A stretch of DNA of 64,000 bases from Phyllobacterium phragmitis (GTDB lineage: Bacteria > Pseudomonadota > Alphaproteobacteria > Rhizobiales > Rhizobiaceae): NCBI RefSeq assembly GCF_002980495.1, contig NZ_PVBR01000008.1, positions 124,001 through 188,000 of the forward strand, written 5' to 3'. Shown here piece after piece: positions 24,153 to 41,625 of this stretch. Each line of letters opens with the position of its first letter. Within the stretch, counting starts at the first letter, position 1. Under the pieces are notes generated by a model that was not told the origin of the DNA, did no database searches, and saw only the letters and a program-made list of their open reading frames with translations. The position numbers and the translations under genes are program-made.

Positions 24153-24153
24153 C

Positions 24154-26090: not shown

Positions 26091-26251
26091 CTAGATTTTG
26101 ATCGCTGGATCGATCCACGCAGCGATCCTGGCCAGAATGTTCTTGAACTCAGGATGCGTTGCCTCCCACGCGGGCTCGGACAGTTTCGCCAGCACCACGT
26201 CCGGTGTGGCCTTACCGGTAGTCACGCCGAAGCAGCGCTCGAGATCCCGGG
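26091..26251 (-). pseudogene. Detached C-terminal end of the OLD nuclease
   Basis: On the minus strand, frame -1 relative to the main OLD ORF reads DLERCFGVTTGKATPDVV to a TAG at 26091-26093, about 52 residues. Joined to the ...QIMWPG end of the main ORF it restores the family-typical WPGDLE junction. One missing G in the CCCGGG run at 26246-26251 explains the break. Confidence 0.65.
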
Positions 26252-27787
26252 CCACATTATCTGTAGATCGGCAACACCCTTGTGCTTGTCGATCTTCTGT
26301 CGGGCCTTCAGTGTCATCGGCTTGATGCTGCCATCAGGCAGCAGGTCCTCGTCTGTCACCGCGCACCAACGGATACCAAGCTTGCTGGAGATGGAAGTGA
26401 AAGCGGGAATGGCGCCGACGTCGCCGCACGGGGTAATACTCACCGATCGCCCATCGTAATCCATGCTCGTCTTGTCGAAACCCAACCGGGTGGCGAATCC
26501 ATCGTCCTTCCCTTCGCAGAAGATAGCGGCGGTGCTGAACAGGAAGTCGTGGGCGCCGCGCTCGTCGAGCTTTGACTGCAGCTTCGCCTCAGGATCGATC
26601 TGATCGGTATGCACCGTCCCGCTAGTCACCTTTCCGGCGTGGCGCACCAGCCGGTGGATTACCTGCTTCTCGTCGAAGCTCACGAGTTCCGGGGAATGCG
26701 TCGAGAGCACGATGACCCAACCCTTCGCGGCGAGCTCGCCCAGCACCTTACGGATGCGCCGGCGAAGATGAGGGTGAAGATGCGTCTCTGGCTCCTCTAG
26801 TAGCAGCACAACCCGATCCTTGATCAATTCCTTGAACTCGGTCAGGGCCTCTAGCGCTGCCAGACGGATCACGGCCTGCCATCCATCGCCCATGCTACGG
26901 AGGGGTGTTGGCGCGCTCTGCGGATCGGTCGCCAATGAGATCGCCAGCTGTTGGGCGAGCCAATCCTCGATCACCTGCGTGCTTGGCTTGAGATCGATCT
27001 GCGCCGGCGCACCTACGTAGCGCCCGAAGATAGCCTCGAGCTTGGGCTTCATCTCCTTCTGCCAGAAGGGGAAGTCGTCGACCGCTCGCCGGAAGAAGCC
27101 ATACGCCGCATGAAGCGCATCCGGCATCTTGCGCTGACCGCCGGGCACTTCCAGTACCCAGTTGTCCACGAGGAAGCGCTGCGCCAGCAGCTTCGACAGC
27201 TTCTGGATTGGCCCAGTCTTCCAGACGTAGAGGGAGACCTCGATGTTCTGCGGCTTGAACAGCCAGACCTCGGGAGTGAAATCGTAGATGTCGTCGAGAC
27301 GGGCGTTCACGACTCGGTAGTTCACGTCGTGCTCGGCGAACCGCTCCTTGTCCCCAGCCTTCAGCGGGGACCGGTGCGACATAGTGATGGTCTTCATCGC
27401 GGCGTCTAGAAGCGTCCGGCTGTGGCTGATCTTGCCTGCCCGTGTGATCTTGCCCTTCACCTGCAAGCCGTGGACCACGTGCACGTCGCCGATACCGTGC
27501 ACCGCCGGATAGCCTTCTTCCCGTTCGGCCTGGAACAGCACCTGGACGAGAAATTCCGAGGCGCGGTTGCCCTTGAGGTCGGTGTAAAAGTCGGTTTCCT
27601 CGGGAGACCACTGGTTGAACGAAGGATTGTTCAAGGCCAACGCGATCGCCGCAAGCACCGTCGACTTACCGGCGTTGTTGGAGCCGATCAGAACAGTTGG
27701 GAAGCCCTCACGCAGATTGATCTCGAGCTGGTCAATGCCGCGGAAGGATTTGATGACGACCTTCGACAATTTATAATCGATTGGCAT
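26222..27787 (-). CDS. OLD-family ATPase/TOPRIM nuclease, frameshifted near its end
   Basis: An overcoming-lysogenization-defect (OLD) family protein, 521 residues as read. Walker A is GSNNAGKS at 35-42, the ATPase has VVLLLEEPETHLHPHLRR (Walker B) and VIVLSTHSPELV. The C-terminal TOPRIM nuclease has IFCEGKDD near 422 and VTDEDLL near 480. It should cleave DNA in an ATP-regulated way as an anti-phage protein. A GTG at 27811 is possible, but the ATG at 27787, behind a GGGGGGG run, starts at the conserved MPIDYKLSKV. The last 50 residues are lost by a one-base frameshift. No UvrD-like GajB partner is present, so this is not a Gabija pair. Confidence 0.82.
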   Translation of the reverse strand: MPIDYKLSKVVIKSFRGIDQLEINLREGFPTVLIGSNNAGKSTVLAAIALALNNPSFNQWSPEETDFYTDLKGNRASEFLVQVLFQAEREEGYPAVHGIGDVHVVHGLQVKGKITRAGKISHSRTLLDAAMKTITMSHRSPLKAGDKERFAEHDVNYRVVNARLDDIYDFTPEVWLFKPQNIEVSLYVWKTGPIQKLSKLLAQRFLVDNWVLEVPGGQRKMPDALHAAYGFFRRAVDDFPFWQKEMKPKLEAIFGRYVGAPAQIDLKPSTQVIEDWLAQQLAISLATDPQSAPTPLRSMGDGWQAVIRLAALEALTEFKELIKDRVVLLLEEPETHLHPHLRRRIRKVLGELAAKGWVIVLSTHSPELVSFDEKQVIHRLVRHAGKVTSGTVHTDQIDPEAKLQSKLDERGAHDFLFSTAAIFCEGKDDGFATRLGFDKTSMDYDGRSVSITPCGDVGAIPAFTSISSKLGIRWCAVTDEDLLPDGSIKPMTLKARQKIDKHKGVADLQIMWPGISSAASA

Positions 27788-27815
27788 TCGCCCCCCCAAG
27801 ACTCGTGCCACTTGC

Positions 27816-28508
27816 TCAGGCTGAAGTTAGCGTGTCACGCAGAGCAATGATGCTATGCGAATTTAGCAGTAGCGACGCAGTCCCAAGTGTTTCAAGAAAT
27901 ACTGCTGATATCTCGTCACCATTCACGCGCAGCGTGTGTCCGACGCGAGTCAGCCGCAAATCCAACTCGTTGAACCCGGCAAGGTCGTCGTGGTGGTGTG
28001 CGCCGCCGCACCTATTGGCCACATAACGGATCGTCGCCTCGCGCGAGATGGTAAGGCCAGCGACGCCTAAGCAAGGCTGTAGCAAGAACTTCGACAGTTT
28101 GATGTCTGCAAGGACGTGCGTACAAGGAGAGCTGGCGACCTGTCTTTCGAATTGCGGCCGGTGAGGACTATTGGATCCTGGTTCCCGGTAGACGAAGTGC
28201 GGACGGACAGTTGCGAACCCCAGTTGATAGCCGCCACAGGCAAAAAGGACCGCCTCCTCGATTGGAATGCCGTCCAGCAAAGGTGCCCGTACCTGAATAG
28301 TCTGGCCCAGCTGATGGGCAGCTTGGGCGAGCGCACCATCAAACAGAAATCGTAGGGAGAGGCTGGCGCGAAGCGCCTCTGGCACGCCCGGCTTGGATGC
28401 ATTGAGGAGTTCCTCGAGTGTATTGAGGTGGATATCGACAACCTCAGCGCGTCGTATAAGCACGTCCATATTCTGCGTTGATGTCCCCCTACCGGAAATG
28501 GATCTCAT
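27816..28508 (-). CDS. Unknown protein, operon partner of the OLD nuclease
   Basis: A 230-residue protein not recognised. Visible segments are a helical first 80 residues (RRAEVVDIHLNTLEELLN, SLRFLFDGALAQAAHQLG), FACGGYQLGFATVRPHF, ADIKLSKFLLQPCLGV and ISREATIRYVANRCGGAHHHDD, a His/Asp-rich motif that could bind metal. It is transcribed into the OLD gene, whose ATG is 29 bases after its stop, so the two form a likely unit. AGGTGG precedes the ATG at 28508. A role as regulator or second component of the OLD defence unit is inference. Confidence 0.65.
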   Translation of the reverse strand: MRSISGRGTSTQNMDVLIRRAEVVDIHLNTLEELLNASKPGVPEALRASLSLRFLFDGALAQAAHQLGQTIQVRAPLLDGIPIEEAVLFACGGYQLGFATVRPHFVYREPGSNSPHRPQFERQVASSPCTHVLADIKLSKFLLQPCLGVAGLTISREATIRYVANRCGGAHHHDDLAGFNELDLRLTRVGHTLRVNGDEISAVFLETLGTASLLLNSHSIIALRDTLTSA

Positions 28509-28525: not shown

Positions 28526-29536
28526 CTAGGCGCTAGGTTCAGACGCCCGTTTCCACATCGGCGCACCGCTGCCATAGTGCAAATCCCTGTCAGCGCGTTC
28601 GGTGTAAAAGGCGTCCAAGCCAGGGTATGGCAGGTCCTTCTTACGTTCCTTGGCGCCGTATTGGACAACGGCTCGCTGCCACTTGAAGTCGAGATTTGGG
28701 CCGCTCTCGACGGACAGTCGCCCTTCACTGAGTCGATAGCTTGGAGTGACGAACTCCCGAACATAATCGCACACTAAATTCGCAGCTCGCGTAAGTTCAA
28801 GCATAAGGTCCTCGACTAAATCGACGTGAAAATCATACCTGCCCAAAAGATCATTGTATTTTTCCTCATTCCATTCCGGAATTTTATAAAACTTCCTTGT
28901 CATAAGCTCATCGTCACCAAACGGTTCAGCGTATTCACGAAATGTTTCCTGAAAATCTTGGAGGATAAGGCGAAAATTGTTCAAAGCGCTCTCCAGCCTT
29001 GGATAGCGGCCCGGCCAAATCCGATTCAAAAGCCATTTTCTCAGCTTGAAAAGATCGTCGTCAACTTCCTTCCATATGCTTGGCTGTCCGTGAGAGAGAA
29101 GAGAGCTGCTCCAACTTGACCATTGGTCCAGGTGCGCAAGCCTCTGCCACTCATCGATCATACCGGAATAATATTCGTCATCTTTTTGCTTTTTCTCATC
29201 ATAGCTCAACTGAGATTTTACCCAATCCTCGTGCTCCTTCTTCATTCGAACTAGATATTCGACGGAGTATTTTTCCGGCTGACTATCAACAATCTTGTGG
29301 TGAATGCGGCAAAGGAGAATCAGGTTTCCGTAACTGTTGCGTCGCTCGATCGGCATTGTGGGGTCGGCACGCGGCCCGTCGTCGCTTTCCGCCGCGATGT
29401 GGCAGTTCTCTCCAATGAGGGTGGCGTCATCGGTTTCCGTCTGGTCCTCGTATAGCTCGATTCGGCAACCCGGCTCGGAACACCGGCATGCAGCGCGTCC
29501 CCAGAGCATTTTGTGTGTCTTTATGGAAATCGACAT
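28526..29536 (-). CDS. HNH endonuclease-domain protein
   Basis: A 336-residue protein with an N-terminal HNH nuclease. The motif runs ENCHIAAESDDGPRAD, then NSYGNLILLCRIHHKIVDS, with Cys/His metal ligands. The remaining 230 residues are acidic and helical (WSSWSSSLLSHGQ, LFKLRKWLLNRIWPGRYPRL) and not recognised. ATG at 29536 follows GGGAGGATTTC; an upstream extension in the same frame is excluded because it would cross the LexA box at 29582. Base composition is visibly more AT-rich than the neighbours, a sign of recent transfer. It is divergent from the zinc-module gene across the LexA box. Confidence 0.8.
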   Translation of the reverse strand: MSISIKTHKMLWGRAACRCSEPGCRIELYEDQTETDDATLIGENCHIAAESDDGPRADPTMPIERRNSYGNLILLCRIHHKIVDSQPEKYSVEYLVRMKKEHEDWVKSQLSYDEKKQKDDEYYSGMIDEWQRLAHLDQWSSWSSSLLSHGQPSIWKEVDDDLFKLRKWLLNRIWPGRYPRLESALNNFRLILQDFQETFREYAEPFGDDELMTRKFYKIPEWNEEKYNDLLGRYDFHVDLVEDLMLELTRAANLVCDYVREFVTPSYRLSEGRLSVESGPNLDFKWQRAVVQYGAKERKKDLPYPGLDAFYTERADRDLHYGSGAPMWKRASEPSA

Positions 29537-29581: not shown

Positions 29582-29596
29582 GTTCCTGTATTGTTC
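29582..29596. promoter_or_regulatory. LexA (SOS) box between divergent HNH and zinc-module genes
   Basis: GTTCCTGTATTGTTC is a perfect GTTC-N7-GTTC, the alphaproteobacterial LexA site. It is 46 bases upstream of the HNH start and about 50 bases upstream of the plus-strand gene. Confidence 0.72.
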
Positions 29597-29648
29597 TACA
29601 TTCGCCAGTTCGGCGCAACAGTTGAATCCACCTGCTGGGGGACTTCCT

Positions 29649-31175
29649 TTGGTCGGCAACACCGTAACGATTACCATCCCGGACATAGAGAACATGCCCG
29701 ACGACGAGTTCGCCTGTTTCGCCCGGATGCACGATGGCCGCTGGAGCGACCAGACTAAGGCGATGATGCACCGCTTCGGAACCGGCAAGCTCAACCTCAA
29801 TCGGGCTTGGGCAGGCGCGACGCAGGCCTGGAATTGCCCATGCTGCAAGAGGACAAAAACGGAAATTGCCCGGCTCACGTCTTCAGGCGTCCTCCTATGC
29901 GCGATCGAGTCTCACCACGATCATCTAGGCGACACGGCCGGTGACCGGTTCAAGACGATCATCGGCACCAGCGAAGACCGTGAATTCACCATCCAGCGCG
30001 AGCATGCCAAATGCGGGATGCTCCAGTTCGTGGAGCGCTTCCAACGGACGCTGATCTGCATTGACTGCAATGTCGCCGAGACCGCCGCCAAAGACCTTCT
30101 GGGCAACGTCAACGACGACACCTTCATTTTGCGCAAACGCGAGTTCAGTTTCTCCCCGCTGGAAATCGCCGGCTTCATCAAGCCGGCTGCGAACAAGGTG
30201 CATCAACTGGACGCAGATGCCGTCCGCTCGACGTGGGAAAGGGTAAAGCCGGACATTATCGATCGCATGGATTTCTGCGAACGGATGGCCCGGCGCTTCG
30301 TCAACGGGAAGAACCGCCGGGAGGTGGCGGTGGGCACCCGTGAGCGGCTGGAAATGGATGATCACCTCGTCATCATGGAACAGGTCAGGGAGGCACTGCC
30401 AGAGCTTTCCAGAGGCAACAGCATCGCAACGCGGGTGATGATCCGATCGGTTGCCAGAGACGCAGTGCGGCACTCTGATAGGCCGAAGACGAAGCCGGCG
30501 ACCCGAGCGATTACCGATGCGGAATATGCGAAGGTCGACGCCGCCAATGCCGACCAGAAACACTGGCCCAAGGTCGATGAGAACTGGCGCTGTGCATGCT
30601 GCCAGCGGACAAAGCGGGAGATATGCCGACTATCGAACAAGAGGCTATGGCATGCCAAAATCCATATTCTCCGGGACTGGATCTTCGATGCGACGGAGCC
30701 GAATGCTCGATACTGGAGAGCTCCGCTGGAGAACACGAATCTCATGATCGTGGACCACGTCCCGTCGCTGGTTTGTCAGGACTGCCGTCACGTCGTGTCG
30801 GAAATCCAGAGGATGGATGACAGCGTGGACTGCAACGCCCTGACGATCGCCGACATGGCCGAGTCGATCACCGCGATTGCGCCGCACCAGCTACACGACA
30901 TCGACTATCAGTTCGCCATGCAGCGGGCGCACGACAACGGTGACATCGTAGCGGCCGTCGAAGCCTACCACGCCCATGAACAAGATGTCCGTTTCCAGAT
31001 GGAAAGGATCAAATCGTTCATGAAGCGCCACCGCTGCCCAATCGAGGATGCGCGGAACACCTTCGCCTACGAGTATGCCAAGGCGGTGGACGTGGAACTA
31101 GAGGAAGGCCACGCATTCATGGATTGGATGATTGCCGAGGGAAGGCGATTCGAGAAGCGCCGAGGTTCTGAGTAA
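29649..31175 (+). CDS. Protein with two tandem CxCC...CxxC zinc-binding modules (possible HNH-like nuclease)
   Basis: A 508-residue protein with an internal duplication. Module 1 has WNCPCCKRTKTE (Cys63, 65, 66), SHHDHLGD (89-92) and LICIDCN (Cys137, 140). Module 2 has WRCACCQRTKRE (Cys315, 317, 318), IVDHVPS and LVCQDCRH (Cys376, 379). Paired CxxC knuckles around a DH motif resemble the HNH/treble-clef fold, so two nuclease-like domains are proposed; the family itself is not recognised. Start TTG at 29649 follows GGGGGA; ATG at 29694 is an alternative. Transcription probably starts at the LexA box. Function is likely in DNA metabolism or defence, by context only. Confidence 0.65.
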   Translation: MVGNTVTITIPDIENMPDDEFACFARMHDGRWSDQTKAMMHRFGTGKLNLNRAWAGATQAWNCPCCKRTKTEIARLTSSGVLLCAIESHHDHLGDTAGDRFKTIIGTSEDREFTIQREHAKCGMLQFVERFQRTLICIDCNVAETAAKDLLGNVNDDTFILRKREFSFSPLEIAGFIKPAANKVHQLDADAVRSTWERVKPDIIDRMDFCERMARRFVNGKNRREVAVGTRERLEMDDHLVIMEQVREALPELSRGNSIATRVMIRSVARDAVRHSDRPKTKPATRAITDAEYAKVDAANADQKHWPKVDENWRCACCQRTKREICRLSNKRLWHAKIHILRDWIFDATEPNARYWRAPLENTNLMIVDHVPSLVCQDCRHVVSEIQRMDDSVDCNALTIADMAESITAIAPHQLHDIDYQFAMQRAHDNGDIVAAVEAYHAHEQDVRFQMERIKSFMKRHRCPIEDARNTFAYEYAKAVDVELEEGHAFMDWMIAEGRRFEKRRGSE

Positions 31176-31488
31176 GAAGACTTTGGCGTCCGGTTGCGCT
31201 CCAATCAACTTGAAGAAGGGCTGCCAGCGCCCGAATCGGCGAAGCGAAGTTCAGTTTGCAAAGGTCGAAATCGTGCTGTTTATGCTCCAGTCGGCCCGAT
31301 CGGATACGCTGAACGACGGCAACGTCCGCTTTCCAGTGAGTATGTTCCGAGTGCGGACTGACAGCTGCCGGGACATTCTGCGTTGCGGCACATCATTCCG
31401 AATTCGCACCCAAATAGTCCTAACACGACTTGGACGCGGTCGCTGTGCGTGCAGTAACAAAGCGACGAGCCAGCAAGAAGGAAACGAA
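31176..31488. other. Gap of about 310 bases before the beta-lactamase
   Basis: No gene seen, although the frame of the beta-lactamase is open back to 31132. AGAAGGA at 31477-31483 fixes the beta-lactamase start. Confidence 0.5.
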
Positions 31489-32292
31489 ATGCGCAGACTT
31501 GTCCTTTCCGTCGTCGCAACACTTCTCACCTTGCCCGCATCTGCGGACACACGAACTATTTGCACCCTTGTCGCTGACGCCAACAGTGGACAGACTCTGG
31601 TTGAAGAGGGCGATTGCGCGCAGCGAATGTCACCCGCATCCACCTTTAAGATCACTATCGGCCTCATGGGGTTCGATGCCGGTATTCTCAAATCGCCCTC
31701 GGCACCGGAACTCCCATTCCGTGAAGGCTATATCGATTGGCGGCCGGAGTGGAAGCAGGCGACTACGCCGTCGCGCTGGATGAAGCATTCGGTCGTCTGG
31801 TACTCGCAGCAGATCACTCAACGGCTCGGCGAAAAGCGATACAAAGCCTATGTCGAGAAGTTCGATTACGGAAACCGGGACGTTTCGGGCGACCCGGGTA
31901 AAGCGAACGGTCTGACCAATGCGTGGCTCAGTTCCTCGCTGCAGATTTCGCCGGTTGAGCAGGTGGAGTTTCTACGCAAACTCGTCGGCCGCGAATTGCC
32001 GGTCAGCGAGGCGGCGGTCACCAATACGGCGGCAATCTTGGACTATGGCGTGCAGGACGGGGGTTGGCAGCTCTACGGCAAGACCGGTGCGGGGCTACCG
32101 CGCGGTGCCGACGGGCAGGTGGTGAAAGGCCAGCCCTTCGGCTGGTTCGTTGGCTGGGCACAGCGGGACGGCCGCACCATCGTTTTCGCCAGGCTCATCC
32201 AGGACAGCAACCGGCAGTCCACACCTCCAGGTTTTCGGGCGCGCGACGGTCTGATAGCTGATCTATTGGGCACGGAGAGCCCACTGAACTGA
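31489..32292 (+). CDS. Class D beta-lactamase (OXA-type)
   Basis: A 267-residue serine beta-lactamase with a signal peptide (MRRLVLSVVATLLTLPASA, cleavage near residue 19). All class D motifs are present: S51-T-F-K54, S101-V-V, Y127-G-N129 and K198-T-G200, with WFVGWAQ after it. It hydrolyses beta-lactam rings in the periplasm. ATG at 31489 follows AGAAGGAAACGA. It is followed after 61 bases by a LysR regulator and then a lytic transglycosylase, all on the same strand, a cell-wall-themed run. No insertion sequence or integron cassette site was seen beside it, so this looks resident rather than recently mobilised. Confidence 0.92.
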   Translation: MRRLVLSVVATLLTLPASADTRTICTLVADANSGQTLVEEGDCAQRMSPASTFKITIGLMGFDAGILKSPSAPELPFREGYIDWRPEWKQATTPSRWMKHSVVWYSQQITQRLGEKRYKAYVEKFDYGNRDVSGDPGKANGLTNAWLSSSLQISPVEQVEFLRKLVGRELPVSEAAVTNTAAILDYGVQDGGWQLYGKTGAGLPRGADGQVVKGQPFGWFVGWAQRDGRTIVFARLIQDSNRQSTPPGFRARDGLIADLLGTESPLN

Positions 32293-32353
32293 CTTCAAGC
32301 GCGGATGTGCCTGCTCCTTCATTGGGGCAGGTCCTCTCGGCAATGGTGGGTGC

Positions 32354-33220
32354 ATGAATATCGATCTTCTCCGCGACTTCATCTGCCTTGCGGAGACGCT
32401 GAGCCTCACCCTTGCGGCCGAAATCCGGCATACGACTCAATCGAACATCAGCAAGCGGCTCCGCCGCCTTGAGGAATCCCTTGGCAAAGCGCTTGTCGAT
32501 CGCCGCAGCCGCCCCATGCAGCTAACCCAAGCAGGCCAGGACTTTCTGCCAAAGGCGCGCATGATCCTTGAGGAACTCGACGCCTTTCGCGGCTCAGAGG
32601 CGCCATGGAGTCCGAGCGAAGGCGGCATGACGATCGCCATGCCGCATAGCGCGACAGTCTCTATTTTTCCCCGTTTCAAGGAACGACTCTCGCATCAGAT
32701 GTCGGATGTGTTCTTTGCGCCGCGCATTGCCAATCAGGACACGGTCGCGCAGATGCTGGCGCGATCCGAGATCGACCTCGCCCTCGTCACCCGGCATCCC
32801 CGTGTACCACCGGCGGAAGAGCTTGCCGTGTTTCGGCCGGTCGATATTGCGCGGGATCGGCTCGTGATTGTCGCGCCGCCAGGCATCCCGGATGCCGAAG
32901 AACGGCCGCTCCACGTTTCACACCCGCTGACTTACATCGGGCGCATCTGGAAGACCTGTCGGGGCAATGTGCCCACAACGCGGGAAATCCCCCATGGAAT
33001 GGCCGCCGACATTCGCGCCCATTGCCTCGCTGGCGGAGGCCGGGGCGTTCTGCCGGAAACGCTGGTCGAAGCGGACATCGCGGCGGGACGGCTCTTGGTC
33101 TACCCCAGCAAAAGCGATCTAAGCTTTGTAGTTTCGCTTTTTGCATCTCCCCGTGCTTCCCGTCGAGCCAAGCGAATATGGCAGCTTGCGGCAGATTGGG
33201 ACGATCAAAAATCTAAGTAA
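32354..33220 (+). CDS. LysR-family regulator
   Basis: A 288-residue LysR-type protein with N-terminal HTH (LRDFICLAETLSLTLAAEIRH, TQSNISKRLRRLEESLG) and an effector domain that includes FPRFKERLSH and RSEIDLALVTRHP. The usual LAAEIRHTTQS replaces the more common AA..L..sQPA sequence. It lies downstream of the class D beta-lactamase in the same direction rather than divergent from it. Control of the beta-lactamase and the transglycosylase is possible by proximity, but AmpR-style divergence is absent. Confidence 0.83.
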   Translation: MNIDLLRDFICLAETLSLTLAAEIRHTTQSNISKRLRRLEESLGKALVDRRSRPMQLTQAGQDFLPKARMILEELDAFRGSEAPWSPSEGGMTIAMPHSATVSIFPRFKERLSHQMSDVFFAPRIANQDTVAQMLARSEIDLALVTRHPRVPPAEELAVFRPVDIARDRLVIVAPPGIPDAEERPLHVSHPLTYIGRIWKTCRGNVPTTREIPHGMAADIRAHCLAGGGRGVLPETLVEADIAAGRLLVYPSKSDLSFVVSLFASPRASRRAKRIWQLAADWDDQKSK

Positions 33221-33240
33221 TTTCGCCGACGGGAAGCCTT

Positions 33241-34482
33241 ATGCAGAAGATTATCATGTGCCTAGGAAGCCTCGCGATCACGGTGGCATGTGCGGGAACG
33301 GCCGAAAGCAATCTTGCCGACGTGATGCGACCACAGTCGTCTGCTTTCACAGAGACCTTCGATGCCGAAACCGAAATGCGCGCCTGGATCACGGATTTCC
33401 GCCCCCGTGCGTTGGCGCGAGGGATTAGCCAGACAACGTTCGACCGAGCTTTCGCTGGCGTGCGCTACAACCCGGAGGTTATAAGACGTGACGGCAATCA
33501 GGCTGAGTTCACAAAAACAATCTGGGACTATTTGGACGCTGCGGTGTCGGATACCCGCATCGAGAACGGCCGCGCTACGTTAGCCCACTACAGCACTATA
33601 CTTAACCAGATAGAAGCTGAATATGGTGTCGACAAGGAAATTCTTGTCGCCTTCTGGGGCATTGAATCGAACTACGGCACCCACAGGGGCGACTTTCCTG
33701 TTGTCGAGAGCCTGGCAACGCTTGCCTATGAAGGTCGCCGTGCCTCCTTTTTCGAAGAACAGCTCATCGCTGCACTCAAGATACTGCAGGCAGATGACGT
33801 TGAAACTTCGGAAATGGTAGGCAGCTGGGCTGGCGCGATGGGGCACACCCAGTTTATGCCAGACACGTTTCTGAGCTATGCGATTGACTTCAGTGGTGAC
33901 GGACGGCGCGACATTTGGTCAGATGATCCTACAGATGCGCTGGCTTCGACATCAAGTCTTCTCGCGCGGGGCGGCTGGCAAAGAGGCCAGGTTTGGGGAC
34001 TGGAGGTCAGCCTGCCGCGAGGCTTCGACTACGCACAAATCGGCCGGCGAAACCAATTGCCAGCCTCCGCGTGGGCGGCGCAGGGGGTACGTTCTGTGGA
34101 CGGGAAAGTTTTCCCTCCAGGGCAGGCATCAATCCTACTGCCCGGCGGAGCCGAAGGCGCAGCCTTCCTAGTTTACCGCAACTTTCATGCGATCCGGCGC
34201 TATAACCCCGCAGATAGCTACGCCATTGCCGTGGCGCATCTTGCGGACCGGTTGAGAGGGCTGGGCCCGATCCAGCGCATTCCCGCCAATGTCAGCCGCG
34301 CACTGAGCCACGAAGAGCGACTGGAATTACAGGAGCGGTTGACGCGGGCAGGGTTTGACACGAGGGGTACCGATGGGAGAATTGGCCCAAATACTGTCAA
34401 GGCTATCAGGGCTTACCAGCGCTCAGTCGGATTGATTCCGGACGGCTTCGCGGATGAAAGGTTGCTTCGGCGGCTGCGCTGA
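33241..34482 (+). CDS. Lytic murein transglycosylase (MltB-like)
   Basis: A 413-residue secreted peptidoglycan lyase. A short hydrophobic N-terminus ends at AC (residues 16-17), so it may be a lipoprotein, though the lipobox is imperfect. The SLT_2/MltB domain has the catalytic Glu142 in FWGIESNYGTHRGDF, plus GSWAGAMGHTQFMPDTFLSYA. A peptidoglycan-binding domain covers about residues 350-413 (LQERLTRAGFDTRGTDGRIG). It cleaves glycan strands to 1,6-anhydro-MurNAc products. The gene begins 20 bases after the LysR stop. Confidence 0.9.
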   Translation: MQKIIMCLGSLAITVACAGTAESNLADVMRPQSSAFTETFDAETEMRAWITDFRPRALARGISQTTFDRAFAGVRYNPEVIRRDGNQAEFTKTIWDYLDAAVSDTRIENGRATLAHYSTILNQIEAEYGVDKEILVAFWGIESNYGTHRGDFPVVESLATLAYEGRRASFFEEQLIAALKILQADDVETSEMVGSWAGAMGHTQFMPDTFLSYAIDFSGDGRRDIWSDDPTDALASTSSLLARGGWQRGQVWGLEVSLPRGFDYAQIGRRNQLPASAWAAQGVRSVDGKVFPPGQASILLPGGAEGAAFLVYRNFHAIRRYNPADSYAIAVAHLADRLRGLGPIQRIPANVSRALSHEERLELQERLTRAGFDTRGTDGRIGPNTVKAIRAYQRSVGLIPDGFADERLLRRLR

Positions 34483-34663
34483 CCGCACAGGAACTGCCTT
34501 TGCTACCAATCTGGAGCACATCGGCGGCAGCAATGCGCCTCCATCCCGGTCTTTGAACTCACCATGGCGGTGCTCCAGAAGCGGACATCTGTAACCAGTG
34601 GCTACCGCACTGTGAGACAAGCCTGGTTACACGCCGGTTCCTTCGAACTCCCTTAGCGCTATG

Positions 34664-35170
34664 TCAGTCGACTGAATAGTTAAAGGTGCCGCACAGTCCG
34701 GGGCTGTTGATGTCCTTTGGCTCCTTCGATCCCTCGAAGACGGCTACTCCAAGCAGCGACGCCCCGAACGACAAGGATTCATGGAAGACCAGATATTTGG
34801 CTGCCTTGCCGCAAAGCGTGTTGCCGTTGAGAAGCGTGCCGGGATCCTTTGCGACCTTGAACACCTCGGCAGTCACTTTCTTGCCGTCGACGTCATCCCA
34901 CTGACGCCAGGACGCGCCAACGGACGTCAACTGGGCCTTTTTGCCGTTGCCGAAAGTGATTGTCATCTTGCTTCCAGGGGTCGCGAACTGATTGTTGCCG
35001 GACAGCCGGATTGCACCAGTGATCGATTCCGCAGTGCGGCTGTAGGGTTCGAATTTCCGTTTGTCCTGCCAAACGTGGTGTTCGATAGCCGATTGCGCGA
35101 GGACCGGTCCCGATAGAAGGGATGCCGCTATAGCAAGGGCTAGCGGATATCTGTGCTGCAAAGCCATCAT
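34664..35170 (-). CDS. Small secreted protein of unknown function
   Basis: A 168-residue protein with a clear signal peptide (MALQHRYPLALAIAASLLSG, then PVLAQSA) and cleavage after VLA. The mature part, about 145 residues, has two cysteines in TLCGKAAKY and GLCGTFNY, suitable for one disulfide. Segments such as ITGAIRLSGN and KMTITFGNGKKAQLTSVG suggest a beta-rich periplasmic fold. It begins two bases after the TcmP stop, so it is probably read from the same transcript, though an association with that system is unproven. Confidence 0.75.
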   Translation of the reverse strand: MMALQHRYPLALAIAASLLSGPVLAQSAIEHHVWQDKRKFEPYSRTAESITGAIRLSGNNQFATPGSKMTITFGNGKKAQLTSVGASWRQWDDVDGKKVTAEVFKVAKDPGTLLNGNTLCGKAAKYLVFHESLSFGASLLGVAVFEGSKEPKDINSPGLCGTFNYSVD

Positions 35171-35171
35171 T

Positions 35172-36347
35172 CTAAGAAGCATGCTCAGTCATGGCAGTTT
35201 CCACCAGGCCGATCATGTCTGTTTCGTCCGGAGTCTTCCTCCGGGAGCCGCCAGCCTTCCATGTTTCGGCGATGATGCCGTCTTTCCCTAGTTCGGCGCA
35301 GACTTTCCTTGCGTCTGTCCGGCGAAGCATGAAGGTCTCCAACATGGGTGGCCAAACCTGCGAGAAGGGGAAAGCGCAGCCGTTTTCCTTCAGCTCGTCT
35401 TGAAGCCATACCTTAGCTTGCTTCCTGTATTCGGCGACCTGAGTGTCAATCGGCGGAACAGCGTGCAGGTCGGCAACCGAGAATATGCTGCCCTGTCCAG
35501 TTTTCGCTTCCAGCAGTGCCTGCTTCGCCTCAAGCCTCCGCATGCCGTGCTCTTTCATTGCGGAGTACTCGACCTCCCGATAGGCCTCCACCCCCTTCAC
35601 GTTCCTTGAGCCGTATACAATGCAGAAATGCGTGCGGTCCGCCAATTTCTCGATTGGGGTCGAAAGAACGTATCGGAAATCCCCTGCCTTCTTGAACTCC
35701 TCTGCGAAGATTGCTTGCACCGCCTCGTCCCGGGGGAGCGAAGAAGCCTCGATCCGAGCCTTCCAATCTTTGCCGAGAATGCCGTCGAAAGTGGCGGCGA
35801 TCCTTGGATTGTCCCACGCCGTGAATCTGTTCACGAAGTCGAACATGTAATTCAGCAACACCTCGCCGGGCGTGTGCTTCATGATCCTTGAGATTTTCTC
35901 GAATTCGTAGCCCGTCCATCCGGTAGGATCGATGAAGGTCAGGGCAAACGAACTGCCGACCACTTTCATGATCTCGTCGACGGCATCTTCGAAGCGGCCA
36001 TGAAAGGTGTACACATAGAACTCGTTGGCCGGATCGTGGTGCTTCGTCACGGCCGCTTCGAGCTTGGCGTAGGAAGAAGCCTTTTCTTCGACGAAGAAAC
36101 ACCGGATCCGTTTGCGCTTGCCTTGCGCCCGCATCTGCTGCTGCACGTCCCTCAGAACGCCGATCGCGATCATGAAAGATGTGTCGGAATAATCGGAAGT
36201 CTGCGATTCCCACGGGCCGGAGAAGCCGTCCACGTATGTCAGCGTGGGATGACCGCCCTGCAGAAGCTTGAAGGCCAATGTCTGAAGATACTTCCTCAGG
36301 ATGATGTGCTTGGCTTGGGTCTGTTCCCGATCCCGATAAACGTTCAT
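35172..36347 (-). CDS. tcmP: Three-Cys-motif partner protein TcmP
   Basis: A 391-residue protein of the three-Cys-motif partner (TcmP) family. Family-like sequence includes KHIILRKYLQTLAFKLLQG at the start, then TYVDGFSGPWES, FFVEEKASSYAKLEAAV and FIDPTGWTGYEFEKISRIM, where the DGFSG/FIDP motifs resemble a methyltransferase-like fold. It lies 18 bases after its partner, a DUF5131 three-Cys protein, as in other genomes. The pair is led by a LexA box. Its biochemical role is not established; DNA repair or defence is suspected from its genomic association. Confidence 0.85.
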   Translation of the reverse strand: MNVYRDREQTQAKHIILRKYLQTLAFKLLQGGHPTLTYVDGFSGPWESQTSDYSDTSFMIAIGVLRDVQQQMRAQGKRKRIRCFFVEEKASSYAKLEAAVTKHHDPANEFYVYTFHGRFEDAVDEIMKVVGSSFALTFIDPTGWTGYEFEKISRIMKHTPGEVLLNYMFDFVNRFTAWDNPRIAATFDGILGKDWKARIEASSLPRDEAVQAIFAEEFKKAGDFRYVLSTPIEKLADRTHFCIVYGSRNVKGVEAYREVEYSAMKEHGMRRLEAKQALLEAKTGQGSIFSVADLHAVPPIDTQVAEYRKQAKVWLQDELKENGCAFPFSQVWPPMLETFMLRRTDARKVCAELGKDGIIAETWKAGGSRRKTPDETDMIGLVETAMTEHAS

Positions 36348-36365
36348 CTCACCCTGGCTGGAAGG

Positions 36366-37124
36366 TTATTCTGCAGCGACAGAAACTATTCCTTGGCTTG
36401 GTTCTTCAGACGGTAGCTGATTCCATTCGAATCCGTCGAGTGTTCGACCCCCGGACTTCGGGCGTATTCCGCCCCATTGCTTGAAAAAGAAAGCAACTCC
36501 GGCTTCCACGCACTGATCACGGACCTCCCTGACCCAGTCAGGAAGCATCGGCCGTGCCCGTGGGCCGCTCTCTCCGCCAACGATCACCCAGTCGATTCCG
36601 TCTAGGTTCATTTGACCCATCGGCCCAATCAGGGGTTCAACAGACAGGAATTTTATGGAAGCGTTCATTCCCTGCATGTGACGGATGCGGGATTTTCTCG
36701 ATCCGTCCTCGACCGATGTTCCAAGCCATATGTGCGCAGGCGCGGCTTCGTCCTTGTAGCGCCTGTTCACATAGTCGCGCATGCGGGAACTGCGTTTGGT
36801 CAGAATCTGGAAGGTATGCCAGTCCGCACGCTCCATGGTGTCGAACACCCTGTCAACGAATGGGAATGGCACCTCCTTGTGGAAGAGATCGGACATTGAG
36901 TTCACGAAGATCATCTTCGGTGACTTCCATGCCAGAGGCTGCTCAAGTCGTTCCGGACGCAACAAGAGATCGAAGCCATGCTCGAATGGGTGCCCGGGAA
37001 CGCCACGGAAGCGCTCTGAGAACCGCTCCGCATAGCAGTTGTCGCAGCCTGCGCTGATCTTCGTGCAACCAGTCACCGGGTTCCACGTGGCATCTGTCCA
37101 CTCGATTGCAGTTGTGCCAGCCAT
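36366..37124 (-). CDS. DUF5131 / phage Gp37-Gp68 family protein (three-Cys motif)
   Basis: A 252-residue protein of the phage Gp37/Gp68 (DUF5131) family. Residues 1-40 read MAGTTAIEWTDATWNPVTGC then TKISAGCDNCYAERF, giving Cys20, Cys27, Cys30, a C-x6-C-x2-C arrangement that resembles an iron-sulfur or radical-SAM-like motif. Later LAWKSPKMIFVNSMSDLFH, FQILTKRS and WVIVGGESGPRARP are characteristic. ATG at 37124 is preferred over 37142, which would put the coding start inside the LexA box. It is the promoter-proximal gene of an operon with tcmP. Confidence 0.87.
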   Translation of the reverse strand: MAGTTAIEWTDATWNPVTGCTKISAGCDNCYAERFSERFRGVPGHPFEHGFDLLLRPERLEQPLAWKSPKMIFVNSMSDLFHKEVPFPFVDRVFDTMERADWHTFQILTKRSSRMRDYVNRRYKDEAAPAHIWLGTSVEDGSRKSRIRHMQGMNASIKFLSVEPLIGPMGQMNLDGIDWVIVGGESGPRARPMLPDWVREVRDQCVEAGVAFFFKQWGGIRPKSGGRTLDGFEWNQLPSEEPSQGIVSVAAE

Positions 37125-37136
37125 CGTACGCCCTTG

Positions 37137-37151
37137 GAACATAAAGAGAAC
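37137..37151. promoter_or_regulatory. LexA (SOS) box of the DUF5131-tcmP operon
   Basis: GAACATAAAGAGAAC is a perfect GAAC-N7-GAAC (the reverse complement of GTTC-N7-GTTC), beginning 13 bases upstream of the DUF5131 start codon. Confidence 0.75.
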
Positions 37152-37313
37152 ATATGCTAGCCAAACAAGGTTAGCAACCGATTAAGATTCGCGTCGCGAG
37201 TGGCTCCGACGATGGCCTTTCACCCTTGTCGCCCCTCTTCCCCATCACCCCTTTTCTCAATTCCCTTCTTTCTCCCGCCGTCATATATCGGGACCGGGCA
37301 TTGGGGAATATTC

Positions 37314-38249
37314 ATGAAAAAGCTACTTCAGCTCGTCATTCTCGCCATCGTTGTCGGGTGGCTGGTCAATCGGTTCGGCGGTGATGACGATACTTCTCCG
37401 GTTCAGTCGACGGCCACAAACTCTGAAACCAACGTCAGTACGGCCGTCAGCGTGCCCAAGGCCTGTGGCAACGGTGGTCGGGTTGTAGACGACATCGTTG
37501 CGGTCACGGGTGAGTACGAACCACGGGCGACCCCTGAGCAAGACGGTGCCAAGATCAAGAACGTCAAGGCTTCGGAAGCACTTGGAAAGACGCACTACCA
37601 CCAGATCGATTCCTCGACGACTGTGCGCCGCCTTTGCGATCACGGCAACTGGACGGAAGTCCGGATCGTCACCCCGGAATGGCTGACCCATGTTCAAGGC
37701 TGGGTGCCGACGAAGGTGTTGCGTGTTATCGAGCGCACGGCCGCCGGCGGCCGCGTGTATGTCGAAGACGATTTCTTTTGGGATGACGACACCTCGAAGT
37801 TCAAGCCGGAGATCGTTGCCGTCGTGAACCAGATCGCCCGCGAGCACGACGGGTGCTCGACGATTGACACGGGGACAGTCGCCAAGTCGCCTTCCCGAAG
37901 CAAACCCGGCGATCCGGTTTTCTTCGTGACCTGCGGGTCCTCGCAGCCCTTCAACGTCTGGTTCCGGCCGGGGGACGCGAAGAAGACATTCAAACCCGTC
38001 GCGGCTATTTCTCAGGGCGATGCCGTGCTTGCATGCGAGAAGGCAGCCAAGGCGGCGGCGACGCATCCTTCGACCGTCGATTTCTCCCGTTTCCTGGACG
38101 TTGCCTATTCCGCCCGCCCGGTCGGCCGAGTTTCATTGGATTCGACGTTCACGGCGAAGAACGCTTTCAATTTTGAACTCAAGTACCGGATTCGATGCCT
38201 ATTCGACGGGAGTACGCTCATCGAAAGCCAGATTGTGGAGTCGGACTAG
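37314..38249 (+). CDS. Membrane-anchored SH3-like protein, unknown role
   Basis: A 311-residue protein with one N-terminal transmembrane anchor (MKKLLQLVILAIVVGWLVN) followed by an acidic linker. Residues about 80-150 have an SH3-like pattern (TVRRLCDHGNWTEVRIVTP, THVQGWVPTKVLRVIE), and the C-terminal half has two cysteine-containing segments and a beta-rich domain (FDGSTLIESQIVE). It probably faces the periplasm. ATG at 37314 is chosen because it starts the membrane segment. It is divergent from the SOS-boxed DUF5131 operon and not recognised beyond the SH3 likeness. Confidence 0.65.
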   Translation: MKKLLQLVILAIVVGWLVNRFGGDDDTSPVQSTATNSETNVSTAVSVPKACGNGGRVVDDIVAVTGEYEPRATPEQDGAKIKNVKASEALGKTHYHQIDSSTTVRRLCDHGNWTEVRIVTPEWLTHVQGWVPTKVLRVIERTAAGGRVYVEDDFFWDDDTSKFKPEIVAVVNQIAREHDGCSTIDTGTVAKSPSRSKPGDPVFFVTCGSSQPFNVWFRPGDAKKTFKPVAAISQGDAVLACEKAAKAAATHPSTVDFSRFLDVAYSARPVGRVSLDSTFTAKNAFNFELKYRIRCLFDGSTLIESQIVESD

Positions 38250-38265
38250 AAATAGATGACCGCAA

Positions 38266-38934
38266 CTAATCCTCTTTCGGGGATGCCCCCTTGCCGAGCC
38301 TTGGAAATACGCTGTTCATGTCGTTCCAATAGATCATTTCTCCCCTGCGATCGGACAGGAAGGACGGAGCATTGCCTGCGGCCCTGAGAACCACTGCGAA
38401 ACGTTCGGTGATCACGGTGACCGACCGCCATCCGCTACACACGCCCGCCGCTGCCTCGGGAAACGGTTCGGTGGGATAGAGATGCCTGCCTCGGAGGTTC
38501 ACGTAGATAAGTAGGTCAACGTCACTGCATTGGTCGGCGTATTTTTGAGCCTTCTCCTGGCATCGATCCGAGATCATTGCCGCATATTCTCGAGGAGGAA
38601 TCGGATTGCTCGAGATGACGCCCGGCTCGAAGAGGTCGTCGAGGCGTTTTGCCCGTCGTATGCGGTCCGATCGCTACTTGATTTCAAGGTTCCTGGGGCG
38701 GTCTTTGTCGAGAATCTCGGTCACCTGAAATCGGGCATCGCGGAACCAGGCATCGATCGGCTCCGGACCGCGCTTGGTGATCTCTTCTTCCCGATAATCC
38801 AGTCCGAGCACGCGCAGAAGTCCCGCCACGGCGGTTCGCTCCTGAAGCTCCTGACCTTCGTTAGAGAACAGTTCGACGGCTTCCTCAGCGTCTCGGCTGA
38901 GGCGTTTCAGGTATTCCTTTTCCGAATTTGACAT
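38266..38934 (-). pseudogene. DUF1780 protein interrupted by one in-frame stop
   Basis: The minus-strand frame encodes a DUF1780-type protein: SNSEKEYLKRLSRDAEEAVE and FFSN-like VELFSNEGQEL at the start, FRDARFQVTEILD in the middle, then DLLIYVNLRGRHLYP and ending RLGKGASPKED. A TAG at 38674-38676, in the same frame, splits it after DRPRNLEIK. The flanking halves align without loss, so one C-to-T change in a CAG codon would explain it. Start ATG at 38934 follows AGGAGG. It lies downstream of the PIN gene on the same strand. Confidence 0.72.
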
Positions 38935-38982
38935 TGGCCATGTTCCTCCTGGCACATGGCGAGACTCAAGTCTGCCGCCGTG

Positions 38983-40122
38983 TCACTCTTCATAGTCCCA
39001 GTTCGGATCGATCGAGCCGAAATCGATCACTACACGGATGGGAGTGATTTCGATCCGCTCAACAATGGGTTCCTCCTCAATTTCGCGCTGCATGGAAATC
39101 GTCATTGGAATCGTGACCGTTTCCTCGGTTTCATGACTGTCTGAACCAAGGCTCACGTAGTCCCGATCAACGCTGTCGTGCACGGAGTAGGAGAATGTCC
39201 CCTCGAAACTGACGATCGCCGTTACGGAGAGGGTGAAAACAATGATCTCCGAGGAGGCATACAGAATCCTGGGGTCGACTTCGGCATTCATAGCCCAGTG
39301 CTGCAGGGACGGATCGATGTTGTCGATCTCGTATTCCAGGGATGCATACGCCTCGACCTCCGGGTCGAACTGCTCGAGAAACAGCTCGATGGCTCTCTCC
39401 ATCTCATCATGCATATCAGCGGCATCGGCCTTCCGCAGCATTTCGAGAGCGCGACCGACTGTTTTCCGAACCTCGTTGCTCACATTGAAATGGTCGAGGG
39501 CGGTACCAAGCTCGGAGACAACCACGAGGCAATCCGATTGCTCCGCGAACTTTCTCCAGTCTCCATCAGCGCTGACTAACAGAACCGACGTCTTGTTCGC
39601 GGTTGCCCATGCCTCAAGGGACAGCAGAGCGAGAGCATCCGGGAACTCGCTCTTCTTGGCCTCCTTCTTCGAGAATGGCGGCTCCGTGGCGAAGTACCGC
39701 CTGATCACCTCGTCGTGCGAGACGAGACCTTCAACCTTGACGATCTCAGGTTCGGTCTCGTCGGCAAAATCGTCGAAGAAGACTTCCGCGAACGCCTCTG
39801 GCGACTTCGGGAGACCAAGCAGTTCGTCCACTGCCCCTATGTCGGGGTCGCATCGCCATCCTTTTCGGACCTTGTTCAGCGCGATCCTGAGCTCGGTATG
39901 GGATTCCGTGGCCATCGCCGTGATATGCGACTTCACCTCGTTTACGACGATCTCGGATAGCAGGAACCTGGTCCCGGTGCCTTTGAACTGTGATAGGCCC
40001 CGCAGTGCTCGAACGTTCAGATTGCATTGGTAACGGTCGAAGGCGGTGGTATCGAGTGAGATCGCACCGATCTTGCCGGAAAGCACGAGTTCGCCAAGCT
40101 GGTCTTCTCCGACTGAAGGCAT
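38983..40122 (-). CDS. PIN-domain protein (DUF4935-like), partner of Abi_C protein
   Basis: A 379-residue protein with an N-terminal PIN-like nuclease domain. Acidic candidates are Asp24 in ISLDTTAFDR, Glu57/62 in LSEIVVNEVKSH, Asp162 in SEFPDALALLSLEAW and Asp186/188 in LVSADGDW, in the order usual for PIN ribonucleases. The C-terminal 160 residues are acidic and beta-rich and not recognised. Its ATG directly follows the TGA of the upstream Abi_C gene (TGAATG), so they are translationally linked. It probably cleaves RNA as the toxic arm of a defence pair; this is inference. Confidence 0.78.
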   Translation of the reverse strand: MPSVGEDQLGELVLSGKIGAISLDTTAFDRYQCNLNVRALRGLSQFKGTGTRFLLSEIVVNEVKSHITAMATESHTELRIALNKVRKGWRCDPDIGAVDELLGLPKSPEAFAEVFFDDFADETEPEIVKVEGLVSHDEVIRRYFATEPPFSKKEAKKSEFPDALALLSLEAWATANKTSVLLVSADGDWRKFAEQSDCLVVVSELGTALDHFNVSNEVRKTVGRALEMLRKADAADMHDEMERAIELFLEQFDPEVEAYASLEYEIDNIDPSLQHWAMNAEVDPRILYASSEIIVFTLSVTAIVSFEGTFSYSVHDSVDRDYVSLGSDSHETEETVTIPMTISMQREIEEEPIVERIEITPIRVVIDFGSIDPNWDYEE

Positions 40123-41319
40123 TCAGGTCCCCGCTTCCTTGGTCAAATTCGGCTTTCTGACCTCCCACGTGGAAACCAGGAATGTCGCCATCGTCCCGGA
40201 CAGATTGACGGCGAGTTGCGCGTGTCGAGCAGCTGGCTTCACCCGCTTCGGCCCGGGGCTGTGTGCGTCGCTGATCTTGTTCCGCAGCGACCCAAGGGAT
40301 TCGACGACGGATTGGCAGCTCCCGAGAATTTGCTTGAAGACGGGTTCGGTGTGACCGTCGGGGGCCAGGTTCAGTATCTTCGCCAGTTTCCGGTAAAGGA
40401 CTGGGAGGTCGTCCTTTTCCTCGAACGTCTCCCCTGCCTCGACGATGATCCACTTGCACACGTCCTCGAGCAGCGTTCTAGCGAGTGTGATCGCTCCTGC
40501 GGGATCGGTATCCCGACGGTCTAGCGCCTGGGTCCATCTGGCATGCACCGTGTCCGGGTCGAAGTCGGCGAGCGCCTGCGAGATCGCGTCATCCGCTGGA
40601 CTGCCGAGGGCAGCGGGCTGCACCTCGTAAACGGGACTGCCTGAGAGCCGACGGACGATGATCAGCCGATAACTATCATGACGAAGGTGGTCATTGATCG
40701 CCGCGGCGAGTTCTGTCTGAGCCTCGGGCGATTGCGTGAGAGGGCTGGTGACTTCCTCTAGGAACCGGAAGAATTGCCTTTGCGAGCATGTCAGATATCC
40801 GACCGCCTCAAGAACTTCTCGGTTGCTCCAGTCGAAGTTCCGCACAATCGCGTTGAAGAGATCGTCGTCCAAGGTGTGTTCTGACGGCGTATTCTCGAAG
40901 ATGGAAGACATTCGGCTTGTCGGCCATACGCGGCGAATGAAGTCCAAGTCCTGGAATTCCGTGCTGAAGGGCCGCTTGTCGAAAAGCGCCATGATGCGGC
41001 GACGGGTGAGCTCGGAAACGCTGGCTTGGTTGGTTTCCTGAAGCTTGGCCAGGGCCTCGGACACGTCATAGGAGTCGACTTCTTCAAGAAGGCGCTGAGC
41101 GATCGGGATCAACTCCGCCGCCGATTTCTCGATCAGTCGCCGCTCCGCATATTTGAATTTGCTCTTGAATGACTCCTCGCGATCCCCGTCTCGCAGTCCG
41201 AGACGGCTGCAGAGGGACGGCACCTCGTTGGCGCTGAAATCGTATATCGCACCTGCCAATGCATTTCTAAGCTGCTTGACAGCCGCCGTCGGATATTGCT
41301 GCGCTGCTTGCTGTTTCAC
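40123..41319 (-). CDS. Abi_C-domain abortive infection protein
   Basis: A 398-residue protein with an abortive-infection C-terminal domain at about 285-390: ITLARTLLEDVCKWIIVEAG, then LVYRKLAKILN-like LPVLYRKLAKIL and SLRNKISDAHSPG, the RNKxxxAH signature of Abi_C. The N-terminal part is helical and not recognised. GTG at 41319 follows AAGGGGG. It is the first gene of an operon with the PIN protein and lies 83 bases after the LexA box at 41403. It may sense infection and control the PIN partner. Confidence 0.8.
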   Translation of the reverse strand: MKQQAAQQYPTAAVKQLRNALAGAIYDFSANEVPSLCSRLGLRDGDREESFKSKFKYAERRLIEKSAAELIPIAQRLLEEVDSYDVSEALAKLQETNQASVSELTRRRIMALFDKRPFSTEFQDLDFIRRVWPTSRMSSIFENTPSEHTLDDDLFNAIVRNFDWSNREVLEAVGYLTCSQRQFFRFLEEVTSPLTQSPEAQTELAAAINDHLRHDSYRLIIVRRLSGSPVYEVQPAALGSPADDAISQALADFDPDTVHARWTQALDRRDTDPAGAITLARTLLEDVCKWIIVEAGETFEEKDDLPVLYRKLAKILNLAPDGHTEPVFKQILGSCQSVVESLGSLRNKISDAHSPGPKRVKPAARHAQLAVNLSGTMATFLVSTWEVRKPNLTKEAGT

Positions 41320-41402
41320 ACCCCGACCCCCTTTCTCCGCTCAATTTACACGCAGACTTGGCGGCCGTGCCAGTGAAAGTCACTCTTGTCCTTGACTCTT
41401 CT

Positions 41403-41417
41403 GTTCTATTTTTGTTC
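41403..41417. promoter_or_regulatory. LexA (SOS) box upstream of the Abi_C-PIN operon
   Basis: GTTCTATTTTTGTTC is a perfect GTTC-N7-GTTC. A TTGACT at 41392-41397 suggests a plus-strand promoter here too. The Abi_C start (minus strand) is about 84 bases away; a plus-strand ORF remnant starts at 41445. Confidence 0.7.
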
Positions 41418-41444
41418 TACGCGACTTCAGAAATGGAGGCAGTC

Positions 41445-41625
41445 ATGTCCGAGCCTGCGAGGCCGTCGGCCTCGCGCCACGCGTGATCGCGATCCACGAC
41501 CGGCTGGTCGCTCCGCACGGGTTCCAGCCGGACGGCACACGGCCTGCTGTATGGATCGCGCCGACCTGAGCAAAGACGCGGCTCTGCTTTGCGAATGGCT
41601 TGGCGAGATGTCGGCTGATCTCTGA
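41445..41625 (+). pseudogene. Possible small SOS-linked ORF, frameshifted
   Basis: An ATG at 41445 with GGAGG upstream reads only 13 codons (MSEPARPSASRHA). Coding-like sequence continues in shifted frames: CEAVGLAPRVIAIHDRLVAP to a stop at 41569, then MDRADLSKDAALLCEWLGEM from 41551 to a TGA at 41625. Joining these would give a protein of about 60 residues. Its position right after a LexA box and a TTGACT element suggests a former damage-inducible small gene. Confidence 0.3.

Follow-up and report, generated by a model that had tools for sequence, protein, structure and literature searches.

The window analysed here, a stretch of 64,000 nucleotides, is part of the 5.63-Mb, 139-contig genome of Phyllobacterium phragmitis. 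It carries three perfect copies of GTTC-N7-GTTC in front of three different gene groups: the divergent pair formed by an HNH-like gene and a zinc-module gene, an operon encoding a DUF5131 protein and its partner TcmP, and an operon encoding the abortive-infection protein AbiJ and a PIN-domain protein (Table 1). These sites are almost certainly LexA operators, and quite probably control damage-induced modules, among them DUF5131-TcmP, whose likely work is nucleic-acid chemistry for defence, repair or both. Excerpts of two papers give GTTCN7GTTC for Caulobacter (PMC9578287; PMC12700426), and in the available part of a third the Caulobacter LexA consensus reads (T/A)TGTTC(N6)TGTTC, the same as the extended form GTTC-N6-TGTTC considered below (PMC13384398); box 3 departs from this consensus by a C, instead of T or A, two bases before GTTC. 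An earlier note on this DNA had placed perfect sites at 29582, 37137 and 41403, beside an HNH/zinc pair, DUF5131-TcmP and Abi_C-PIN, and both positions and neighbours prove correct. Its remark that no further perfect intergenic site exists also stands, the fourth copy in the window (6198-6212, minus strand) lying inside a reading frame of 1846 residues (4206-9746) and lacking the T before the second half-site. Box 1 is 45 bases from the HNH start codon and 55 from that of the zinc protein, box 2 is 12 bases from the DUF5131 start as placed at 37124 (an alternative longer frame from 37142 would overlap it), and box 3 is 83 bases from the AbiJ start.

Table 1. Putative LexA boxes, the genes beside them and the flanking Lamassu systems (positions within the window)
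Feature	Positions	Strand	Remarks
Putative LexA box 1 (GTTCCTGTATTGTTC)	29582..29596	+	divergent promoter of HNH operon and zinc-module gene; profile rank 10 of 45
Putative LexA box 2 (GTTCTCTTTATGTTC)	37137..37151	-	before DUF5131; profile rank 3 of 45
Putative LexA box 3 (GTTCTATTTTTGTTC)	41403..41417	+	before AbiJ; profile rank 5 of 45
Zinc-module protein	29652..31175	+	start placed at 29652; conserved residues in alignment of relatives
HNH-like protein	28526..29536	-	N-terminal part resembles PADLOC PDC-M68A and CBASS HNH effectors (E 6.6e-35)
230-residue protein between HNH and OLD genes	27816..28508	-	family searches without match
OLD-family AAA ATPase with TOPRIM domain	26222..27811	-	profile matches
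DUF5131 protein (PF07505; PADLOC candidate PDC-M30B)	36366..37124	-	CX6CX2C cysteine motif; perhaps radical-SAM-like
TcmP, three-Cys-motif partner (TIGR04474; PDC-M30A)	35172..36347	-	methyltransferase-like fold
AbiJ_NTD3 and Abi_C abortive-infection protein (AbiJ)	40123..41319	-	both AbiJ N-terminal domain and Abi_C matched
PIN_12 domain protein, downstream of AbiJ	38983..40122	-	domain match
Lamassu system 1	22627-26031	+	LmuA/LmuB matches
Lamassu system 2	49183-54727	-	LmuA/LmuB matches

How can an operator be told from a chance match to so short a motif? Taken by itself the bare pattern gives chance some room: the window holds no significant excess of it (4 copies against 2.05 expected, a number reached by 13 of 100 shuffles), and genome-wide it occurs 175 times, the reversed pattern 126 times. 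The bare eight-base pattern is not beyond chance in the window, and site density was rejected as the main test because this pattern is too common. The extended form GTTC-N6-TGTTC is found at 45 places in the genome (29 for its reversed counterpart), three of them within this 11.8-kb span, where 0.095 would be expected. With all 45 sites counted, any such trio would arise somewhere in the genome with a probability of 0.15; for the 13 strongest, a cut-off chosen post hoc with the scores already known, the figure is 0.0036. Site density is much weaker evidence than the conservation of boxes in relatives.

A first line of support is the likeness of the three sites to the SOS boxes of the genome itself. 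Its sole lexA gene (C13:79038) has GTTCCAGTCTTGTTC just upstream (C13:78967), and extended boxes stand near recA, near uvrA and ssb (two boxes between them), near a dinB-type polymerase gene, and also near an ImuB-like polymerase locus, a DNA polymerase III alpha gene and a PA0069-family radical S-adenosylmethionine (SAM) gene. The profile used for ranking was made of eight SOS-gene boxes, each left out when itself scored; of these genes PA0069 is no standard SOS gene, and one box (in L017) owes its imuA label to the ImuB-like gene beyond it. Against this profile all three boxes of the window fall between the 3rd and 10th places of 45 (Table 1), lexA's own box being 20th. The 45 sites divide into 21 intergenic ones and 24 inside reading frames, according to our own gene calls, which wrongly place the 29582 site inside an over-long frame; most coding sites score far lower. 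Five more high scorers (in L042, L038, L030, L004 and L002) have no recognised SOS gene alongside, so a high profile score alone is no proof. The one in L004 (G000:C1:171308) is identical over its 15 bases to box 2 (GTTCTCTTTATGTTC) and lies between glyoxalase-family and pyruvate phosphate dikinase genes. That in L042 (G000:C46, position 2201), 4th of the 45, lies about 220 bases before a gene whose 467-residue product matches no known family. An HD-domain gene (dGTPase match) follows, an AbiEii gene lies on the opposite side, and this is perhaps one more SOS-wired defence locus in the genome.

The strongest evidence among the three boxes is that for DUF5131-TcmP, where the box can be followed through related operons. 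Within the order, 78 of 397 genomes encode a DUF5131 homologue, and eighty extra loci from named genomes were added to this order-level set. A perfect box is present at most 200 bases before the first gene in 27 of 67 non-redundant alphaproteobacterial DUF5131-TcmP operons (26 of 66 without the window), distributed as 22 of the 58 that begin with DUF5131 and 5 of the 9 that begin with TcmP. In the same 67 operons, nine control spacings (3-6 and 8-12) yield 0-1 matches each and the reversed half-site none; the excess over the control-spacing background has p ~1e-38, a figure whose true value is made less extreme by relatedness. All boxed operons except L125 (26/27) also carry the T common to this genome's SOS boxes. 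Among the 14 closest relatives in the order-level search (L046-L059), nine show a perfect box no more than 200 bases from the start (seven once near-identical upstream regions are removed); in L050 and L055 the box has a single mismatch. The upstream sequences of these closest relatives are mostly unalike, with the box at varying distances and in either orientation. It precedes whichever gene leads, DUF5131 in DUF5131-first operons and TcmP in TcmP-first ones; in six of seven loci of the latter group (L060-L063 and L065-L067) it stands before TcmP, some 900 bases before DUF5131. That the three sites are chance matches is highly improbable given the profile ranks and a spacing-specific conservation of 27/67 versus 0-1, which for box 2 contradicts it directly.

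The 67 operons remain from 71 alphaproteobacterial loci after alike or too short upstream regions were dropped, with starts placed by rule; under this rule the box of L067 is not counted, and L214 and L215 are outside the 67. Class membership of L117 and above follows record titles, and L119 (titled Proteobacteria) and L125 (a metagenome), both boxed, were counted as alphaproteobacterial. Also left out were L091-L094, which comprise the genome's own paralogue, two relatives matching only residues 5-219 and a duplicate locus. This paralogue (L091; G000:C12:32905) is a second, more distant DUF5131 gene, whose 5-kb stretch contains no perfect box and no TcmP match.

Outside the alphaproteobacteria the same box precedes DUF5131-TcmP in just 1 of 55 operons. 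Viral contigs supplied 80 loci (77 distinct), among which the alphaproteobacterial box is found in five and GAAC-N4-GTTC in five (spacings 3 and 5 in none; p ~1e-5), the background of the latter being 13 in 2145 windows of the viral loci, or about 8 in 2068 minus the hits. CTGT-N8-ACAG is found in two (TACTGTACGTTTAAACAGTA and TACTGTCTATAAGTACAGTA; p ~0.006), with none at spacing 7. In the part of PMC9578287 available, the Bacillus and Staphylococcus SOS box is given as CGAACN4GTTCG and that of E. coli as TACTG(TA)5CAGTA; among the five viral GAAC-N4-GTTC sites, L288 alone has the flanking C and G of the former. A phylum-wide draw gave 19 loci, of which 15 were scored and four had no recognisable start motif, already-counted genomes and two weaker matches (L319 and L323) being left out. 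Two of the 15 (L297 and L318) have a perfect box near the start, L306 has one 953 bases before the start motif together with a spacing-8 control match, and L307 has CTGT-N8-ACAG (CTGTATGAATATACAG) before DUF5131; the other 11 have none of these boxes, L304 showing a looser CTG-N10-CAG. On a Comamonas plasmid (L212, 3366-4786), an S24-peptidase gene runs directly into DUF5131 and TcmP. Its protein has a weak helix-turn-helix match and a composition resembling that of LexA-type repressors, as if the module there brought its own damage-sensing repressor. On the plasmid of L215, from Sulfitobacter, a single-stranded DNA-binding protein gene lies upstream of DUF5131-TcmP, and DUF932 and radC genes lie downstream.

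For the other two boxes fewer relatives are at hand. The two-module zinc protein, which has no family match in Pfam, PADLOC or NCBIfam, has relatives in 2 of 385 genomes of the class, its own included, and a search of viral contigs found none. Two of its five near full-length relatives (L209 and L210) have a perfect box, at -71/-72 of the match start, and this apparent conservation is moderately supported; the count leaves out the partial relatives H55-H58, L115 and L116, the last two having no perfect box. The relatives in L209, L210, L211 and L200 adjoin DarT/NADAR, Gabija or IetAS. The HNH-like protein reaches only E 0.00096 against Pfam HNH_2, below the family cut-off, and its relatives lend no support to the idea that the HNH gene itself carries LexA control. 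The closest relative of AbiJ (72% identity; L197, Rhizobium leguminosarum plasmid pRL11) is preceded by a perfect box, GTTCATGTTATGTTC, that faces the other way with respect to the gene. L096 carries a box with one mismatch near its start, and the other nine have no perfect box within 400 bases. This set consists of 10 of 96 plasmid records (10 of the 11 long matches, H9 being left out) plus L096; in 17 further loci (L097-L113), nearly all partial matches, no perfect box was found except for two sites in L110. Conservation is thus weakly supported for AbiJ, and since its frequency is compatible with chance, the case for box 3 as an operator rests mainly on its profile score.

What might DUF5131 and TcmP do? 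Both proteins of the adjacent pair match PADLOC models, TcmP M30A (E 5.3e-20) and DUF5131 M30B (E 7.2e-103), M41B scoring slightly above M30B for the latter. TcmP passes the TIGR04474 cut-off, and its AlphaFold model has a predicted local distance difference test (pLDDT) score of 87; the best Foldseek match is the tRNA methyltransferase Trm1 (E 1.2e-5, prob 1.00), and those ranked next are largely methyltransferases too. In this model TcmP has a methyltransferase-type Rossmann fold of class I, in which the conserved motifs D-x-F-x-G-P and D-P-x-G would occupy the expected SAM and substrate sites. In DUF5131 the cysteines C20, C27 and C30 are invariant in 12 sequences, spaced as CX6CX2C; the classical radical-SAM cluster motif is CX3CX2C, which DUF5131 lacks. 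The radical-SAM model TIGR04471 matches it with E 5.4e-20, but at 72 bits for a cut-off of 355. A comparison with the PA0069 radical-SAM protein by hhalign aligns the cysteine motif and the blocks following it, with P 0.006 but a probability of only 6.0%. DUF5131 may be a radical-SAM relative, and our reading is that with TcmP it would form a radical-SAM-like enzyme modifying or repairing nucleic acid while LexA is off.

The pair could also be a DNA-repair module with no anti-phage role, an enzyme related to spore photoproduct lyase processing a lesion together with TcmP, carried by mobile elements and phages for their own DNA. Spore photoproduct lyase is grouped with the PA0069-family radical-SAM proteins as among the nearest known to DUF5131, and the PA0069-family gene of this genome is also strongly boxed (L003), with the aligned cysteine motif noted above. 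LexA-type boxes fit such a role, and a search of 50,697 phage records matched DUF5131 relatives in 161, one of which has a 'spore photoproduct lyase' among the features annotated beneath the match. The low profile probability and the non-classical cysteine spacing speak against it, as do the listing of the pair by PADLOC as a defence candidate and the defence genes that surround it in the window; we regard a purely repair role as possible but somewhat doubtful. The wording we favour is that of a presumed SOS-induced nucleic-acid-processing module, for defence or repair.

The setting of the genes brings in yet another explanation. The stretch 34664-41500 has a DNA match in 0 of 5 other genomes of the genus, and the island is, on this comparison, accessory; many relatives of its modules are on plasmids. 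Real LexA sites might then be present without any defence logic, as SOS-linked promoters that travelled with plasmids or prophages, LexA merely silencing costly mobile genes in healthy cells. This is unlikely in our judgement, as the box recurs before the same module with mostly unalike flanks, whichever gene leads the operon and whichever way the box points, a recurrence that points to selection for damage control of DUF5131-TcmP. Around the boxed genes, one Lamassu system lies on each side. Part of the first (24000-26031) shares 89% identity with a Mesorhizobium plasmid, and a RepB/ParB pair with a serine recombinase (42340-45724, minus strand), about 73% identical to Sphingobium plasmids, is probably a mobile cassette. 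Inside the defence region, the gene at 31132-32292 (plus strand) encodes a penicillin-binding transpeptidase domain, which we take to be class D beta-lactamase-like from its STFK and KTG motifs; LysR and lytic transglycosylase genes follow.

Several observations count against LexA control of these modules, or against the proposed chemistry. No perfect box precedes 40 of the 67 alphaproteobacterial DUF5131-TcmP operons, so that control would be common, not universal; the distant DUF5131-first group (L068-L090) is boxed in 2 of 21 and unboxed in 19, and no box is found in the five Rhodobacterales loci of the set or in two further alphaproteobacterial plasmid operons, L214 and L215. In the viral contigs, other spacings of the alphaproteobacterial box give 0-2 matches each and CTGT-N9-ACAG occurs once, while the named-genome loci show no excess of other SOS boxes (GAAC-N4-GTTC in one, spacings 3 and 5 in one each, CTGT-N8-ACAG in none). 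Neither HNH relative, L207 or L208, has a perfect box, and the AbiJ box recurs in 1 of 11 relatives (p ~0.09). Clustering of the sites is by itself weak evidence, and a search for a sigma-70-like promoter at the three boxes found none. As for the folds, the template-modelling (TM) scores of TcmP are low (0.35 to Trm1), and the DUF5131 model is poor (pLDDT 69), its strands and helices alternating as in a barrel; its fold search gave no match below E 0.013. Sequence searches of solved structures found no relative of either protein. On the plasmid of L215, from Sulfitobacter, a single-stranded DNA-binding protein gene lies upstream of DUF5131-TcmP, and DUF932 and radC genes lie downstream.

The earlier note had taken GTTC-N7-GTTC for the SOS site here, and LexA control is well supported, because the boxes match the genome's own SOS boxes and recur in relatives. 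LexA binding, repression and induction, as well as the enzymatic role, are inferred. In an undamaged cell, LexA would occupy the promoters of the operon running from HNH through the 230-residue protein to OLD and of the divergent zinc-module gene, of the DUF5131-TcmP operon and of the AbiJ(-PIN) operon. DNA damage, including that from phage infection or prophage induction, would lift repression via RecA, and the boxed genes would be expressed chiefly as long as damaged DNA persists. DUF5131-TcmP would be a mobile module that in many cases belongs to the alphaproteobacterial LexA regulon and whose radical-SAM-like protein and methyltransferase-fold partner may act on nucleic acid in defence, repair or both.

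Of the damage-triggered, coordinated island that had also been suggested, the LexA wiring is kept, module by module, and the coordination is not. An island-wide programme is unsupported, as neither Lamassu operon has a perfect box (mismatched boxes were not scored there). No AbiJ, zinc-protein, HNH or OLD relative is found within the short flanks of 210 other DUF5131 loci, nor DUF5131 or TcmP in the AbiJ and zinc-protein loci searched; on the plasmid of L200, AbiJ and zinc-protein relatives lie about 4 kb apart with no boxes before them. Regulation seems to act on the single module rather than on the island. This connects the SOS response, in a directly testable way, with a widespread mobile gene pair of unassigned function. 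It suggests that some anti-phage modules, instead of being kept on, are switched on by DNA damage, a point relevant to the way in which prophages, lytic phages and DNA-damaging drugs meet bacterial immunity.

In the open-access literature, with subscription journals mostly outside the search, no paper on DUF5131 was found and none joining LexA, radical SAM, Gp37 and SOS; 'three-Cys-motif partner' and LexA appear together only in another context in the text available. As far as these searches show, the LexA link of DUF5131-TcmP is new, though on open-access literature only, so that priority cannot be claimed. Among the closest known systems is PADLOC PDC-M30 (DUF5131 and TcmP), whose models both proteins match; the model library is silent on regulation, whereas here a LexA link is predicted. 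The PA0069-family radical-SAM proteins share with DUF5131 an alignable cysteine motif and following blocks, and their gene here also has a LexA-like box, but the similarity is weak and the cysteine spacing differs. According to excerpts of PMC10732053, the AbpAB defence system of E. coli is activated by mitomycin C without need for RecA or LexA; DNA damage activating phage defence is a feature of AbpAB that is here predicted, whereas the link in the present case would be a LexA operator. A further close parallel is the higBA toxin-antitoxin operon of Caulobacter crescentus, which in the available part of PMC13384398 is LexA-repressed at a (T/A)TGTTC(N6)TGTTC box. It too is an alphaproteobacterial operon with the same type of LexA box, but the gene families are other ones, and here the box stands before candidate anti-phage modules, of which one carries it in many members of the class.

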